In this document: piece after piece, positions 26,384 to 34,535 of the stretch | How positions within the stretch are numbered: position 1 is the first letter of the stretch | How the letters are laid out: every line of letters starts with the position of its first letter | From: Candidatus Sumerlaeota bacterium | GTDB lineage: Bacteria > Sumerlaeota > Sumerlaeia > SLMS01 | Direction: 5' to 3' | Assembly: GCA_007133495.1 (NCBI GenBank) | Contig: SLMS01000054.1 | Span: forward strand, 1-36,905 | Length of the DNA stretch: 36,905 nt | Position numbers and translations under genes: made by a program | The notes under the pieces: generated by a model | The model's input: only the letters and a program-made list of their open reading frames with translations | What the model was told of the DNA's origin: nothing | The model's database searches: none

Positions 26384-27829
26384 TCACAACCCCGAAACGA
26401 CCCACGCCGACGGGAGGCCCTCCGTCTCCTCCTCCTGGATTTTCACGATGAAAATGTCCCACAGGCCGTTGAACTGCGTGTCGTGCCCGCCAGCCGTCCA
26501 GCCCGGAGAAAGCGTGTCCCCCGTCACATAGATGTATCCGGCCGGGTCCAGCACGATGCCGCAGCCCTGATCCCTGTTCACTCCGCCCATGTAGGACGAC
26601 CAGAGGTGCCTGCCCGAGTAGGAGAGCTTCGCGACGAACGCGTCCTGCGACCCGTTGAATTCGGTGTCGAAGCCCCCCTCCACCCAGTCCGTGGAATCGG
26701 TTCGCCCGATCAGGAAGACGTTCCCGGCGCCATCGACAGTCACGCCATCCGCCCGGTCACTCCCGTCACCACCCACGTAGGTGGACCAGATATGCTCCCC
26801 TTGGGGGGAGATTTTCACCGCGAAGGAATCCGTGGCACCTCCCAGCTCCGTATTGTAACCGCCGGAGGTCCACCCGTCGGAGGCCGTATCCCCGGTGATA
26901 TACGCGGCACCGATTTCGTCCACGGCCACGTCCAGCGCCCGGTCGTTCCCGCTGCCCCCGAAGTAGGTGGACCAGATGTGATCGCCATCGAATGAGAGCT
27001 TCGCCACGAAGGCGTCCTGCCCCCCTCCGTGCTCGGTGTCGAACCCACCGGAGACCCACCCTTCGGACTCCGTGACACCAGCCACGTACACGTCCCCCGC
27101 CAGGTCCACCGTGATCCCGCGCCCGTCGTCCGAGCCGTTGCCGCCAAGGTAGGTGGACCAGATGTGGCCACCCTCGGGAGAGAGCTTTGCCACGAAGGCG
27201 TCGCTCGGGCCGGAGAACTCAGTATTGAACCCGCCCGAAACCCAGCCGGCGGACCCCGTAACCCCCGTTACGTAAACATTCCCTTCCGCATCCACCTCGA
27301 TTTCGCGGGCGATGTCCGCTCCGCTGCCGCCAAGGTAGGTGGACCACAGATGCTGGCCGTCCCCTGTCAGCTTCGTCACGAAAGCGTCCGTATCGCCGCC
27401 GAATTCCGTGTCAAAACCGCCGGTGACCCAGCCCACAGAGCGGGTTTCCCCCGCCACGTAAACGTTCCCCTCCGTGTCGATCGCCATGCCGTAGGCCAGC
27501 TCGCGCCCGGTGCCGCCGATGTACGTGGACCACAGGTGCTCGCCCGAAGGGGAGAACTTCACGGCGATGGCGTCCCGCGTGCCGTTGTATACGGTATCGT
27601 ACCCGCCGGAAACCCAGCCCGTGGAGTCGCTGCTCCCGGTTGTATAGACGTTTCCCTCCTCGTCGAGTACCACCCCGTAGGCGAAATCGTTCGCCGAGCC
27701 GCCCAGATAGGTGGACCACTCGACCTCGGGCCCGGAAGCCGGCGCCGGCTGTCCGCCACCAAGTACCAACAGGATCGCCGAACAGGCGAGGGTGATGCTG
27801 CCCGGAAGCAGCCGCCAGTTTGCCGTCAT
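26384..27829 (-). CDS. Secreted SBBP-repeat (beta-propeller-like) protein
   Basis: 481 residues from ATG at 27829, preceded by GAGGA about 9 nt upstream. Signal peptide: a basic start, then S-I-T-L-A-C-S-A-I-L-L-V-L-G, with cleavage probably after P-A-P-A-S or nearby. The rest is seven tandem repeats of about 61 residues, each opening W-S-T-Y-L/I/F/V-G-G (the last is W-S-S-Y-M-G-G) and containing G-N-V-Y-x-x-G and G-F-D-T-E-F-N/G-G. This is the seven-bladed beta-propeller repeat (SBBP) family; family members are extracellular, with functions mostly unknown. Seven copies would close one propeller. There is no visible C-terminal anchor or sorting domain. The gene stands between rsmB (163 bp upstream) and the ABC operon. 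Confidence 0.85.
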   Translation of the reverse strand: MTANWRLLPGSITLACSAILLVLGGGQPAPASGPEVEWSTYLGGSANDFAYGVVLDEEGNVYTTGSSDSTGWVSGGYDTVYNGTRDAIAVKFSPSGEHLWSTYIGGTGRELAYGMAIDTEGNVYVAGETRSVGWVTGGFDTEFGGDTDAFVTKLTGDGQHLWSTYLGGSGADIAREIEVDAEGNVYVTGVTGSAGWVSGGFNTEFSGPSDAFVAKLSPEGGHIWSTYLGGNGSDDGRGITVDLAGDVYVAGVTESEGWVSGGFDTEHGGGQDAFVAKLSFDGDHIWSTYFGGSGNDRALDVAVDEIGAAYITGDTASDGWTSGGYNTELGGATDSFAVKISPQGEHIWSTYVGGDGSDRADGVTVDGAGNVFLIGRTDSTDWVEGGFDTEFNGSQDAFVAKLSYSGRHLWSSYMGGVNRDQGCGIVLDPAGYIYVTGDTLSPGWTAGGHDTQFNGLWDIFIVKIQEEETEGLPSAWVVSGL

Positions 27830-30548: not shown

Positions 30549-31373
30549 TCACCCCCCGCCCAGGACCTGCGGGTGGAAGATGTGAAGATAAACAAAAAGG
30601 GGGATCGCGGCGAAAAGTACCGCGTCCATCAGGTCAAGGAAACCTCCGTGCCCGGTCAACGACGAACCGCTGTCCTTCACCCCGACGTCCCGCTTGAGCA
30701 ACGATTCAGCCAAGTCGCCGAGCTGCCCCAGCGCGGAGAAGAAAATCGCGAAAAGGCCGAGGTGCAGATTGCTCACGTCCGCAAAAGCGTTCGGAAACGC
30801 AATCCTCACGAACAGCACGACCAGCAGCGCCCCGAGCAGCCCTCCAGCCGCGCCTTCCCACGTCTTCCCGGGGCTGATCCGCGGCGCCATCTTGATGCTC
30901 CCGAAGCGGCTCCCGACGATGAGGGCGGCCGAATCCGTCGTCCAGATGATCCCCAGCATCAGAAGCAGCCAGGCCTCCGATTCCGGAGTCGCCAGAAACA
31001 TCACCACGACCGCCGCCAGCGGAAGCCCGACGTAGGCCATGGTGAAGCAGGTGGCGGAAATGTCCGCCCAGGCGCCCTCCACCTTCTTCGGCATCCGGAA
31101 GAGCCACGCGGCACATATCGCCAACCCGAAGACAAGGCCGGAGAAGCGCATGTCCCAAAGGAGCGCCTCCAGCAGCAGCGCCAGCACCCCCCAGGATGCC
31201 ACGCGGCGGTAAACCCTGATGCCGCGCGGGCGGAGCAGCGTGCAAAGCTCCCAAGTGCAGCCGACGGCGATGATCCCCGTCAGCACCACCAGCACCCACG
31301 CGAGTTGTGGAAACACGAATCCGCTGAAGACGACGGCCAGCAGGAGCGCCGCCGTCATCACCCGGCGAATCAT
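30549..31373 (-). CDS. cdsA: Phosphatidate cytidylyltransferase
   Basis: 274 residues, ATG overlapping the uppS stop (ATGA). Makes CDP-diacylglycerol from CTP and phosphatidic acid in the inner membrane, the entry to all phospholipids. About eight hydrophobic helices; W-T-T-D-S-A-A-L-I-V-G-S-R-F-G, P-R-I-S-P-G-K-T-W-E-G and the C-terminal signature S-L-L-K-R-D-V-G-V-K-D-S-G-S-S-L-T-G-H-G-G. In the usual signature G-H-G-G is followed by x-x-D-R-x-D; here it reads F-L-D-L-M-D, with Leu in place of the conserved Arg. Both Asp residues that bind metal are kept. Order uppS-cdsA is the common one, but dxr and rseP do not follow. Confidence 0.93.
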   Translation of the reverse strand: MIRRVMTAALLLAVVFSGFVFPQLAWVLVVLTGIIAVGCTWELCTLLRPRGIRVYRRVASWGVLALLLEALLWDMRFSGLVFGLAICAAWLFRMPKKVEGAWADISATCFTMAYVGLPLAAVVVMFLATPESEAWLLLMLGIIWTTDSAALIVGSRFGSIKMAPRISPGKTWEGAAGGLLGALLVVLFVRIAFPNAFADVSNLHLGLFAIFFSALGQLGDLAESLLKRDVGVKDSGSSLTGHGGFLDLMDAVLFAAIPLFVYLHIFHPQVLGGG

Positions 31374-32170
31374 TCGGGACCGACCCCGCCGAAACGGCGG
31401 TCGCGCCGCTGGTAATCAAGCAGGGCGCGGAAGAAGTCCGGCCGGCGGAAGTCCGGCCACAGCACGTCCATCACCACGAATTCGGAATAGGCGATCTGCC
31501 AGAGCAGGAAGTTCGACACCCGCATTTCCCCGGAAGTGCGGACAAGGAGGTCCGGGTCTCCCAGTTCGGGATGATCGAGCATCTGGCCGAAGACCTCCGG
31601 CGTCAGCTCCTCGGGCGACAGTTCCCCCGAGCGTGCCATCTCCATGGCGCGGCGCACGGCGCGGGCGATTTCCGCACGGGCGCCGTAGCTCAGCGCCAGG
31701 TTCAGCACGAGCCCTCCGTTGCCGGCGGTCTTCTCCATCGTCGAGTCGAGGATGCGGCGGGTCTTCTCGCGCAGGTCGCCGAGGTTGCCGCTGGCCACCA
31801 GCCGCACGTCGTTTTCCATCAGCTCGGGGACCTCCTTGACGAGGTATTCGTCGAGCAGGTCCATCAGGGCGTTCACTTCACGGGCGGGGCGCGACCAGTT
31901 CTCCTTGCTGAAGGCGTAGAGCGTCAGCCCCGAGAGCCGCAGTTCCGCCGCGGTGCGGGTGGCCGCGCGGACCGCCTCGGTCCCCGCGCGGTGCCCGAAA
32001 ATGCGCGCCGCGTAGCCACGGCGCTTCGCCCACCGCCCGTTGCCGTCCATGATGATGGCGACGTGACGGGGGAGCCGGCCAAGGTCCAGCGCCGCGAACA
32101 ACTCCGCCTCCTCCGCCGTCGCTGGCTGGCGGAGCACCGGCTCGAGCCGCCTTTGGTTTCCAACACTCAT
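31370..32170 (-). CDS. uppS: Undecaprenyl diphosphate synthase (cis-prenyltransferase)
   Basis: 266 residues from the ATG at 32170; a further in-frame ATG at 32194 is possible and neither has a strong ribosome-binding site. Adds eight isoprene units to farnesyl diphosphate to make C55-PP, the carrier for peptidoglycan and surface glycans. Motifs: H-V-A-I-I-M-D-G-N-G-R-W-A (catalytic Asp), F-S-K-E-N-W-S-R-P, and D-L-L-V-R-T-S-G-E-M-R-V-S-N-F-L-L-W-Q. Family members usually have S-T-E-N-W; Lys in place of Thr is a small change. First gene of a run uppS-cdsA-flippase-rsmB, so the carrier, phospholipid and ribosome-modification genes share a transcript. Confidence 0.95.
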   Translation of the reverse strand: MSVGNQRRLEPVLRQPATAEEAELFAALDLGRLPRHVAIIMDGNGRWAKRRGYAARIFGHRAGTEAVRAATRTAAELRLSGLTLYAFSKENWSRPAREVNALMDLLDEYLVKEVPELMENDVRLVASGNLGDLREKTRRILDSTMEKTAGNGGLVLNLALSYGARAEIARAVRRAMEMARSGELSPEELTPEVFGQMLDHPELGDPDLLVRTSGEMRVSNFLLWQIAYSEFVVMDVLWPDFRRPDFFRALLDYQRRDRRFGGVGPE

Positions 32171-32384
32171 CGAAGAATCATCCACGTCCGGCATGGTGCG
32201 TTTCGGACCGGCCGCCTGCCGGCTCCCCAGAAAGGAACCCGGCCGCGGCACGGCACACAAGACCGAACCGCCCGCCACCCCACCGGCGCAACCGGGGAGT
32301 CGGGGGGTGGTCAATGCGGGCGTAGCCTGGAATTGTTATCCAATTGGCAGAGTCGAAGGCGTTCGCCGGAATGGCGTCGCTCAT

Positions 32385-32508
32385 GGAGTGCGAAGGCTTG
32401 CCTTCGCCATCGGGGCGGGAGCTTGCTGCCGCCCCAAGCGTATTGGCCAGCCAGAGCGGGCGCGGGCAAGCCCGCTGCGCGAAGGCGGCGGCAAGCCGCG
32501 CGCACTCC
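32385..32508. repeat. Branched palindromic element (outer stem with two inner hairpins)
   Basis: Outer arms: GGAGTGC (32385-32391) with GCACTCC (32502-32508), continued by GGCTTGCC (32395-32402) with GGCAAGCC (32490-32497). Inside are two further hairpins: GGGGCGG-G-AGC-TT-GCT-G-CCGCCCC (32412-32435), with one G-G mismatch, and AGCGGGC/GCCCGCT (32455-32461 with 32470-32476). The whole can fold as a three-way structure. It lies in a 427-bp spacer (32171-32597) between uppS and the GT39-like gene that has no supported gene. This resembles REP-type palindromic repeats; no REP-associated transposase is in the window. Confidence 0.7.
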
Positions 32509-32597
32509 AAGGGTACGCGGCACTCCCGGCGGCAAGGGCCGGTAACAACGCTGAGGTGTGCCCGGTCAATGCCGCGGGGCGGGTGTCCAGCAGGCGG

Positions 32598-34208
32598 TCA
32601 GCCCTCCGGCCGGACCGCCGTCCGCCAGACTTCCAATCCGTTGTGTGTGGCGGTCTGCTCGGCTTCTGCCACCGTCAGTCCCTTTTCGGAAAGCACTTCC
32701 AAGGCCTGGTCCCACCGGGCCAGCCGGCGCGAGTTACCGGCCAGCACAACCCACAGCGCGCCCCCCTCGGCCGGGCGGAAACGGTCCGGCGGGTCCCAGG
32801 GTGCCCGCATCAAGTGCGCTTCCTTTCCCTCCATGAACAGCCAGTAGCGCAAGGTCCCGTTGATGGGTGAGTCCGCCAGGATGAGGTCCCCCTCCTGCAC
32901 GTGCGCCAGAAGCGTCTCCGCGGCGGGCCGGCCCTGCGGCGTCTGTCCGCCGGATTCCGTCTCGTGCACCTTCCCGGCATTCGACACGCCGAGCACACCG
33001 AACGCCACCGCCAGGACCAGACCCGTCCCCGGCGCCGGAAGCCCCCGCGCCGCGAACGCCTTCAGCCGGCCAGCCACCCAGTCCCCCAGCACCGTCAACG
33101 GAACAACCAGCGCCAGGCCGAGAAACGGCAGGAAGTACATCCACGTCCGCCCCGGCGCGATGCCCCGCTGAATCAGCGTCAGCACCGCCGCGCCCACCAG
33201 CAGAAACGGCAGCACCGGCGGGACCGAAAACCTCCCGCGCACCGGCCACACCATCCCCACCACCATCAGTGGCCCCAGCAGCCACCACGCCGCCAGGGGG
33301 CCCAGCCCGTAGCCAACGTACTCCCAGAAATTTATCAGCGGATAGCGAATGGAACGGACGAGCTGCTCCAGCGGAAGCGGCTGCGTGAACGGGTTGGCGG
33401 AAATCGCGGATATTCCGTTCCGGTAAATCACCGGTCCGTATAGCAACAGCGCCAGCAGCACCGCTCCGGCGCCCGCTCCCGCAAGCCAACCAAGCCGCGC
33501 CAGAAACTCCCGCCGCCAACTGATTACCAACCAGCAGAACGCCCAGAGCCAGAGCCCAACGGCCGCGAAGGCCGTCGTCGGAATCGTATAGAGCCCGAGC
33601 GCCACCACCACGGCGAGCAGGACCGCCAGCACCAGCCGCCTCCGCCCGCCTGCGCCCTCCTCCCCCAGCAAATGTACCATCAGCCCCAGCGCCACCACGA
33701 CCAGCAGTACCTGGATGCTGTAACCCCGCGCCGCAGTGGAAAAGTAAACCATCGAGGGCGAGAACGCGCAGAACGCCGTGGCCGCCACCGCTGCCGAAGC
33801 AGGGGCAAACAGCCGGAAAACCCACCACACCGCCGGCAAGGTCAGCACACCCGCAATGAACGCCGGAACGCGGATCACTGCGGCGTCCCAACCCCCGAAA
33901 AGCCCCATCATCCGCGCCAGGATCGTATGCAGGATGTGGTTGTTCGGGGACTGATAACCCGTCAGCGTCTCGTACCACGAATGGCCGGCGAACTCGGTTA
34001 CCGTGGCCGCCTCGTCCCCCGATATTGGCCGGCCGAGGAACGCCAGCCGCACCGCAAGCCCGGCGGCCACGACCGCCGCAACGGCGATCAGCTCCCAATG
34101 CCCCACCCCGAGCCGCTCGGCCAGTCCCGGACGGGCGGCCGGAGCCTGCCGCGAGGATTCCTCCCTCGCCTTTCCGCTTTTCTTCCGGCTCCGTTTGCCC
34201 TTACCCAT
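32598..34208 (-). CDS. Membrane glycosyltransferase, GT39/ArnT-like (PMT_2 type)
   Basis: 536 residues from ATG at 34208, with AAGGG about 9 nt upstream. A basic cytoplasmic N-terminus (G-K-G-K-R-S-R-K-K), then about 10-12 membrane helices and a C-terminal soluble part from residue ~420. The first extracytoplasmic loop has P-I-S-G-D-E-A-A-T-V-T-E, the D-E pair typical of GT-C enzymes of the dolichyl-phosphate mannosyltransferase/ArnT group; F-S-P-S-M-V-Y-F-S-T-A-A-R-G-Y also matches the family. Such enzymes transfer a sugar from a polyprenyl-phosphate donor to lipid or protein outside the cytoplasm. Donor and acceptor are unknown. The neighbouring uppS makes the relevant carrier. Confidence 0.85.
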   Translation of the reverse strand: MGKGKRSRKKSGKAREESSRQAPAARPGLAERLGVGHWELIAVAAVVAAGLAVRLAFLGRPISGDEAATVTEFAGHSWYETLTGYQSPNNHILHTILARMMGLFGGWDAAVIRVPAFIAGVLTLPAVWWVFRLFAPASAAVAATAFCAFSPSMVYFSTAARGYSIQVLLVVVALGLMVHLLGEEGAGGRRRLVLAVLLAVVVALGLYTIPTTAFAAVGLWLWAFCWLVISWRREFLARLGWLAGAGAGAVLLALLLYGPVIYRNGISAISANPFTQPLPLEQLVRSIRYPLINFWEYVGYGLGPLAAWWLLGPLMVVGMVWPVRGRFSVPPVLPFLLVGAAVLTLIQRGIAPGRTWMYFLPFLGLALVVPLTVLGDWVAGRLKAFAARGLPAPGTGLVLAVAFGVLGVSNAGKVHETESGGQTPQGRPAAETLLAHVQEGDLILADSPINGTLRYWLFMEGKEAHLMRAPWDPPDRFRPAEGGALWVVLAGNSRRLARWDQALEVLSEKGLTVAEAEQTATHNGLEVWRTAVRPEG

Positions 34209-34343
34209 CACGCCCTTCCCGGTACACCCTGCTTTTGTTGCACCGAACCAGCGAGAGCCCCGTCCGCGGGTCAAAGCCTAAGTGCCACACGCCCCGGCGG
34301 CCATGCAGGATATCCCCGTTCTCGTGTTCAATCTCGTGGCCTG

Positions 34344-34403
34344 CTCCGGCCGGAGGGGATCATCCGCCGATTACGCCGATTCACGCCGATGGGGGCTGCT
34401 GCC
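34344..34403. repeat. Second copy of the CGCCGATT intergenic repeat
   Basis: Identical at 53 of 60 positions to 1637-1696, including the core ATCCGCCGATT...CGCCGATGGGGG. The right arm of the first copy (GAATCTGCG units) is missing here. It lies in the 356-bp spacer 34209-34564, which holds no supported gene. Confidence 0.75.
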
Positions 34404-34535
34404 CGGTCCCGCGGGTCGAGTGAAACAGCATACGTGAGGGCCTGCCGATGACTCCAGAGCCGGTGCCACCGAACCGAAGAAGGTAAACAGTCGAGAAGGG
34501 AAACCAAGAGTGTTACCCATGTCCTGACCCAACAC

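Follow-up and report, generated by a model that had tools for sequence, protein, structure and literature searches.

A branched palindrome upstream of uppS in a Candidatus Sumerlaeota bacterium is very probably the core of a MITE-type mobile element

Results

The branched palindrome found upstream of uppS in the window (the whole stretch of 36,905 nucleotides analysed here) is the middle part of a repeated mobile unit, and this unit is very probably one copy of a MITE, a non-autonomous DNA transposon of 246 nt. It is a short dispersed unit with terminal inverted repeats and a target duplication, and a relative contains empty sites for two of the five copies compared. Coordinates of the features are collected in Table 1.

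The original prediction described a branched palindrome of 124 nt at 32385-32508, and the outer stem and inner hairpins fold as claimed. The core has a folding energy of -80.4 kcal/mol, compared with -63.9 +/- 3.7 kcal/mol for 200 dinucleotide shuffles (z -4.42), none of the 200 being as stable. However, the predicted extent was too narrow, taking in just the middle of the unit at 32318-32563. On the + strand the full 246 nt forms a single long branched hairpin from one end to the other (-133.2 kcal/mol, z -3.34); the - strand, on which both neighbouring genes are encoded, reaches -115.5 kcal/mol (z -2.31, 1 of 200 shuffles as stable). Among 17 copies with a full core, two-sided changes were seen at 0 of 39 predicted pairs. 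This absence of covariation fits decaying copies and not a conserved RNA.

Table 1. Features of the mobile element and its surroundings in the window
Feature	Position	Strand	Details
uppS, downstream gene	31370..32170	-	PF01255, E 2.9e-77; start codon 32168-32170
Left target-site duplication, 9 bp, GGTCAATGC	32309..32317	.	9/9 identical to right copy
MITE-type element (very probable), whole mobile unit, 246 nt	32318..32563	+	Repeat alignment, consensus; ends set by direct-repeat statistics
Left terminal inverted repeat, 23 nt	32318..32340	+	Against right end: 14/23 in this copy, 17/23 in consensus
Palindromic branched core	32385..32508	+	Outer stem GGAGTGCG/CGCACTCC, inner hairpins; fold z -4.42
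Inner hairpin 1, GGGGCGGGAGCTTGCTGCCGCCCC	32412..32435	+	Predicted fold
Inner hairpin 2, GCGGGCAAGCCCGC	32462..32475	+	Predicted fold
Right terminal inverted repeat, 23 nt	32541..32563	-	Imperfect inverted copy of left end
Right target-site duplication, 9 bp, GGTCAATGC	32564..32572	.	9/9 identical to left copy
GT-C-like membrane glycosyltransferase candidate	32598..34274	-	Weak PF13231 (PMT_2); stop codon at 32598

The host genome is a draft of 3.73 Mb in 344 contigs, 88.7% complete. When it was searched with the core, at least 40 places matched at E <= 2e-11, whole or partial and with the window copy included; 40 of the 91 first-look candidates were scored, so this count is a lower bound. Pooling the core, left-part and right-part queries gave at least 46 distinct places with some part of the element. 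All three probed parts were present in 18 of these 46, while the others had core and right part (11), core and left part (5), left and right parts (1), core only (6), left part only (3) or right part only (2). The left-part and right-part queries recovered copies that have either end in common. A 244-nt consensus matched all 12 places scored in the same genome; the match covers 234-244 nt at 11 places and consensus positions 53-244 at the remaining one, C5. A genome search for similar outer arms, as the original prediction had proposed, thus reveals an element repeated at no fewer than 46 places, and the objection that it might be unique in the genome falls away.

The copies lie in intergenic DNA. 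By a codon-position test, 1 of 32 adjacent 120-nt windows was coding-like, compared with 21, 29 and 25 of 32 in the three bins farther out and with 236 of 307 windows over the whole contig. The original prediction is borne out in that the palindrome belongs to a mobile repeat scattered through intergenic DNA. Conservation in relatives, the lack of which was to count against the prediction, was not observed, since no match appeared in the same-genus genome G001 or in five other genomes of the same family, with 12 candidates scored per genome. Such absence from close relatives is expected of a young mobile element.

The limits of the unit were obtained from an alignment of 33 loci with their flanks, made up of 32 of the 40 core-matching places and C264, a copy found by pattern search only and excluded from the 46. 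Similarity extends past 32385-32508 on both sides. The terminal inverted repeats are imperfect, 23 nt long, with the consensus GGGCGTATCT..G..TGTTACC, and the consensus layout is GGGCGTATCTTGGAACTGTTACCC...core...GGTAACAACGCTGAGATGCGCCC. Full-size copies measure 246-249 nt, and with this variation no reading frame is kept between copies; in the window copy, three of the six frames are open end to end. The 246-nt unit appears too short to encode a transposase. Many copies have suffered internal deletions and retain one or both ends. The shortest (C280) has about 60 nt and is flanked by a perfect 14-bp direct repeat.

Evidence for target duplication was obtained from 16 two-ended copies, in which the sequence just ahead of the left end was compared with that just beyond the right end. 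Out of 45 loci measured, 29 were left out, mostly with one end missing or not reliably aligned. Flank identity peaks at a single offset, with 134 of 224 positions identical compared with 65-85 at 12 other offsets and with a maximum of 110 in 20,000 permutations. The peak offset (14) equals 9 bases before GGGCG, the true left end being 5 bases farther out. Over the 9-bp flanks there were 102 identities in 144 positions, a value that 0 of 100,000 permutations reached. Six of the 16 copies carry a 9/9 direct repeat, and 10 of the 16 a repeat of at least 7/9, compared with 0 and 2, respectively, of 240 mismatched pairs of flanks. Another copy with both ends, C297, had been among the 29 left out and has no direct repeat (counted by eye); its addition leaves the result unchanged, with at least 7/9 in 10 of 17 copies compared with 2 of 272 mismatched pairs. 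The remaining seven of the 17 have no good 9-bp repeat (6, 4, 3, 3, 2, 2 and 2 of 9).

We take the duplication to be 9 bp long, although a variable length of 9 to 14 bp is also conceivable. The repeat reaches at least 13/14 in four of the 16 copies, while C221 and the window copy match well over the first 9 only. The longer matches extend to 13-14 since the target sequence happens to be GGxxG or nearly so, close to GGGCG. A casposon-like duplication of 14 bp was considered and dropped, both because the C221 target in G001 is unlike GGGCG after nine bases and because the window copy matches well over 9 only.

The same-genus genome G001 was searched with the flanks of five copies (C221, C276, C341, C202 and C277). 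Two of its contigs, C74 and C211, align unbroken across the insertion points of C221 and C276, and these are empty sites: the flank-joined sequence scores 566.5 compared with 511 for the filled version at C221, and 512 compared with 438.5 at C276. At C221 the target differs from GGGCG after nine bases, which supports a 9-bp duplication. For C341, C202 and C277 the right flank alone matches in G001, and at C202 and C277 the flank-joined sequence scores below the filled version. The element is also absent from the uppS locus of G001. There, homology stops 8 nt before the target duplication, another gene comes next (ruvC-like by eye), and the flank-joined sequence scores 191 compared with 247 for the filled one, so that the end of homology and the different neighbour leave no clean empty site for the window copy.

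Along the - strand, the GT-C-like gene is followed after 25 nt by the element and its duplications, and after a further 138 nt by the start of uppS. Among genome contigs, the UppS match of lowest E-value belongs to a Candidatus Sumerlaeota MAG (56% identity), a hint at the phylum at most, as near relatives may be missing from that search. The predicted placement between a GT39-like gene and uppS is correct as to position, but the name GT39-like is weakly founded, the PF13231 (PMT_2) match (E 1.1e-4, 22.9 bits) falling under the Pfam cut-off of 26.1. Gene orientation was assessed with the codon-position heuristic at 43 places, namely 42 of the 46 (without C64, C130, C167 and C183) and C264: 17 copies have divergent neighbours, 16 have tandem ones and 1 has convergent ones, and 9 are unclear. 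Of the 37 non-coding gaps of the window, 7 are divergent, 21 tandem (the element's own gap among them) and 4 convergent, with 5 unclear. Few copies thus sit where two 3' ends meet and many where two 5' ends do; the numbers are small, longer divergent gaps are larger targets, and insertion preference, gap size or selection may each account for the bias. A role at mRNA ends, as had been suggested, finds no backing here, as 3' ends are not favoured (one of 34 classified copies lies between convergent genes).

Two other repeats were noticed in the window. Positions 1609-1807 and 34316-34504 hold a second dispersed repeat (133 nt at 74% and 40 nt at 70%) ending in ...AGTCGAGAACGGAAAC or similar, and like sequence adjoins element copies on other contigs (L072, L099 and L101; by eye). 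At 26577-27718, six direct repeats with a spacing of 186 nt lie within a long - strand ORF, which likely encodes a repeat-domain protein.

Outside the host, a 244-nt query was compared with 60 other genomes, up to 12 candidates being scored in each. Matches reaching beyond the core were found in the own genome only. Part of the core, 25-55 nt, matches in four of the 60 (G012, G013, G018 and G019), all of the same class. In G019, which belongs to another family, the related core sits in elements that are bounded by CTGATGTTACGCA and flanked by exact duplications of 7 bp. Seventeen such elements of 134-203 nt were found, with a 7/7 duplication in 10 of 17 compared with 5 of 272 mismatched pairs; 12 of them contain the core and 5 have other interiors within the same ends, and the targets are AT-rich. 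No transposase was noticed inside ten ends in an ORF listing. These elements are alike to the window element in their related core hairpins, in being bounded by terminal inverted repeats and in their target duplications, while they differ in the repeat itself (CTGATGTTACGCA) and in a duplication of 7 bp instead of 9 bp. We regard them as another MITE family, recent in appearance, which makes 7-bp duplications and has several different interiors. Matches to CTGATGTTACGCA at no more than one mismatch number 63 in G019 (4 in the control), many as inverted pairs, for example at L187-L216. In G018, six elements carry the core in longer GCGCGAAGCGC arms with no duplication signal.

Discussion

The combination of terminal inverted repeats and a near-fixed duplication length suggests that a DDE-type transposase moves this MITE in trans by cut and paste. 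Such an enzyme would recognise the GGGCGNATCT...TGTTACC ends and excise the element as double-stranded DNA. The element would then be joined to staggered cuts 9 bp apart, and gap filling would produce the duplication. The palindromic core would be cargo or structural filler, with hairpins found again in other families of elements in the class. At the loci matching the left or right end in the host genome (88.7% complete), neither an autonomous copy nor a transposase bearing these ends turned up; the transposase gene may have been lost or may be unassembled. A 22-nt left-end pattern had no exact match in the genome-contig database, nor did the plasmid and phage records match the element. An integron attC-like site, which the branched fold might recall, was dropped on inspection, as the copies are single and dispersed and their duplicated targets differ.

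The original prediction placed the palindrome among REP/REPIN elements moved by a Y1 transposase, and the core by itself does look REPIN-like, as GGAGTGCG and a hairpin are followed by a hairpin and CGCACTCC. On this reading the core would be a REPIN, a pair of REP hairpins in inverted order whose GGAG heads point outward and which a RAYT (Y1/HUH) enzyme mobilises in single-stranded form; a variant is a TIR family moved by a TIR-associated Y1 enzyme (TIRYT). GGAG forms both outer ends of the core. GGAG may be a RAYT tag; the word was not found in the literature where it was looked up. In favour of this reading, the related core of G018 lies in plain inverted arms in six elements with no detectable target duplication, and the exact motif TTGGAGTGCGNNGGCNTGCC occurs in four of 39 class genomes, all four with a PF01797 match. 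However, PF01797 is present in 27 of the 39, and the mobile unit here is longer, with inverted-repeat ends and 9-bp duplications. IS200/IS605-type Y1 enzymes are not known to produce target duplications. The search for a REP-associated tyrosine transposase yielded a single PF01797 match in the own genome (C330:11796-12137), with an in-frame TAA. It is flanked by inverted copies of a CCGGTGGTCGAGCG... palindrome, one after GTAG and the other after TTAG, which are REPs of other sequence and not this element. At 30 fetched loci, a subset of the PF01797 matches listed, the core hairpin (GGAGTGCG) was found within 3 substitutions at none, and either element end within 6 of 23 substitutions at none. 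TIR families do flank some Y1 genes, according to the available part of PMC3733652; we rejected membership in TIRYT, as in REPIN/RAYT, in view of the ends, the duplications and the different REPs around the Y1 gene. We thus consider movement of this element as a REPIN improbable, and the claim is not supported. REPs of the CCGGTGGTCGAGCG type were also seen near element copies on C271 and C164.

A nested history would reconcile both readings, each being true at a different time, if an old REP-like palindrome had been captured by a TIR transposon. Core relatives do sit within different ends elsewhere (CTGATGTTACGCA in G019, GCGCGAAGCGC arms in G018), five of the 17 G019 elements combine the same ends with other interiors, and in the own genome 6 of 46 places match the core only. 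Nevertheless, core-only copies are equally explained as truncations, as with QMITE2, and the differing ends could come from divergence of one ancestor. We hold this history to be rather unlikely. An element retained for its function at uppS, whether as a terminator, an mRNA stabiliser or a 5' leader, is very improbable. Both strands give a stable fold, and divergent gaps are commoner for copies (17 of 43) than among window gaps (7 of 37). Two terminator-like sites were found where 0.4 were expected, one overlapping the left end of the element (32317-32329, + strand) and the other outside it (32196-32182, - strand). Against such a function, Rfam gave two sub-threshold matches in 31900-32900 (best 19.8 bits compared with a gathering score of 41.2), compensatory changes were absent from the 17 full-core copies, the element is missing upstream of uppS in G001, 32100-32700 contains no sigma-70-like promoter, and many copies adjoin unrelated genes. 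The lack of an Rfam match and of covariation led us to reject a functional RNA.

The MITE reading has consequences for uppS. The insertion would have put a very stable hairpin between the two genes, 25 nt past the upstream stop codon and 138 nt ahead of uppS, and the element may affect uppS expression. As the palindrome is very probably an insertion, its fold alone should not ground regulatory conclusions about uppS.

The nearest published anatomy that we found is QMITE2 of Coxiella burnetii; the likeness is one of anatomy, and we claim no sequence kinship. In the available parts of its descriptions (PMC5896051, PMC10969869), QMITE2 has TIRs of 23-29 bp (23 in the window element), direct repeats of 7-11 nt in the abstract or 7-9 in the text (9 here) and a REP-containing core of 113-145 bp (124 here), and it is present in tens of full-size and truncated copies, the truncated ones resembling plain REPs. 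Its reported fold is -113 kcal/mol, compared with -133 for the window element with another program. QMITE2 is described there as lying mainly in 3' UTRs and intergenic DNA and as containing a GTAG REP, whereas the window element has GGAG tag-like bases and several core hairpins and is rare in convergent gaps. The Chunjie MITE of Geobacter uraniireducens, as far as the excerpts of PMC10969869 describe it, is 235 bp long and occurs in tens of copies whose TIRs are conserved and whose DRs vary in size; by this description it is like the window family in size, copy number and the many partial copies. REPINs share with the window core an intergenic pair of inverted palindromes that forms one hairpin, and RAYT-REPs have a GTAG-type tetranucleotide and lie beside their own Y1 gene, according to the available text of PMC3116915, PMC8266576 and PMC3733652. 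Unlike RAYT-REPs, the window element has TIRs and 9-bp duplications, and the Y1 gene of its host lies between other REPs. A literature search with the strings GGCGGCAAGCCGCC, GGCGGCTTGCCGCC and GGAGTGCGGCGG returned only papers with unrelated titles. No description of the family was found in the open-licence literature, and we regard it as a new family within an otherwise ordinary type of genomic parasite, one whose fold is notably elaborate.

In summary, the element provides a clear case in which a REP-like palindrome with no matching RAYT forms the centre of a TIR element flanked by target duplications. Its relatives hint at a core that travels as a module within different ends. It is tempting to propose, though we do so with considerable doubt, that this core (GGAGTGC...GCACTCC, hairpins with CTTG/CAAG or CATG centres) is a module acquired by at least two TIR backbones that differ in duplication length (9 bp in the window element, 7 bp in G019), and that it also occurs duplication-free, as in G018. 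If this is true, REP-like palindromes would spread in the class by swapping carriers and not via a dedicated RAYT, and other 'orphan' REP families may be the interiors of MITEs.
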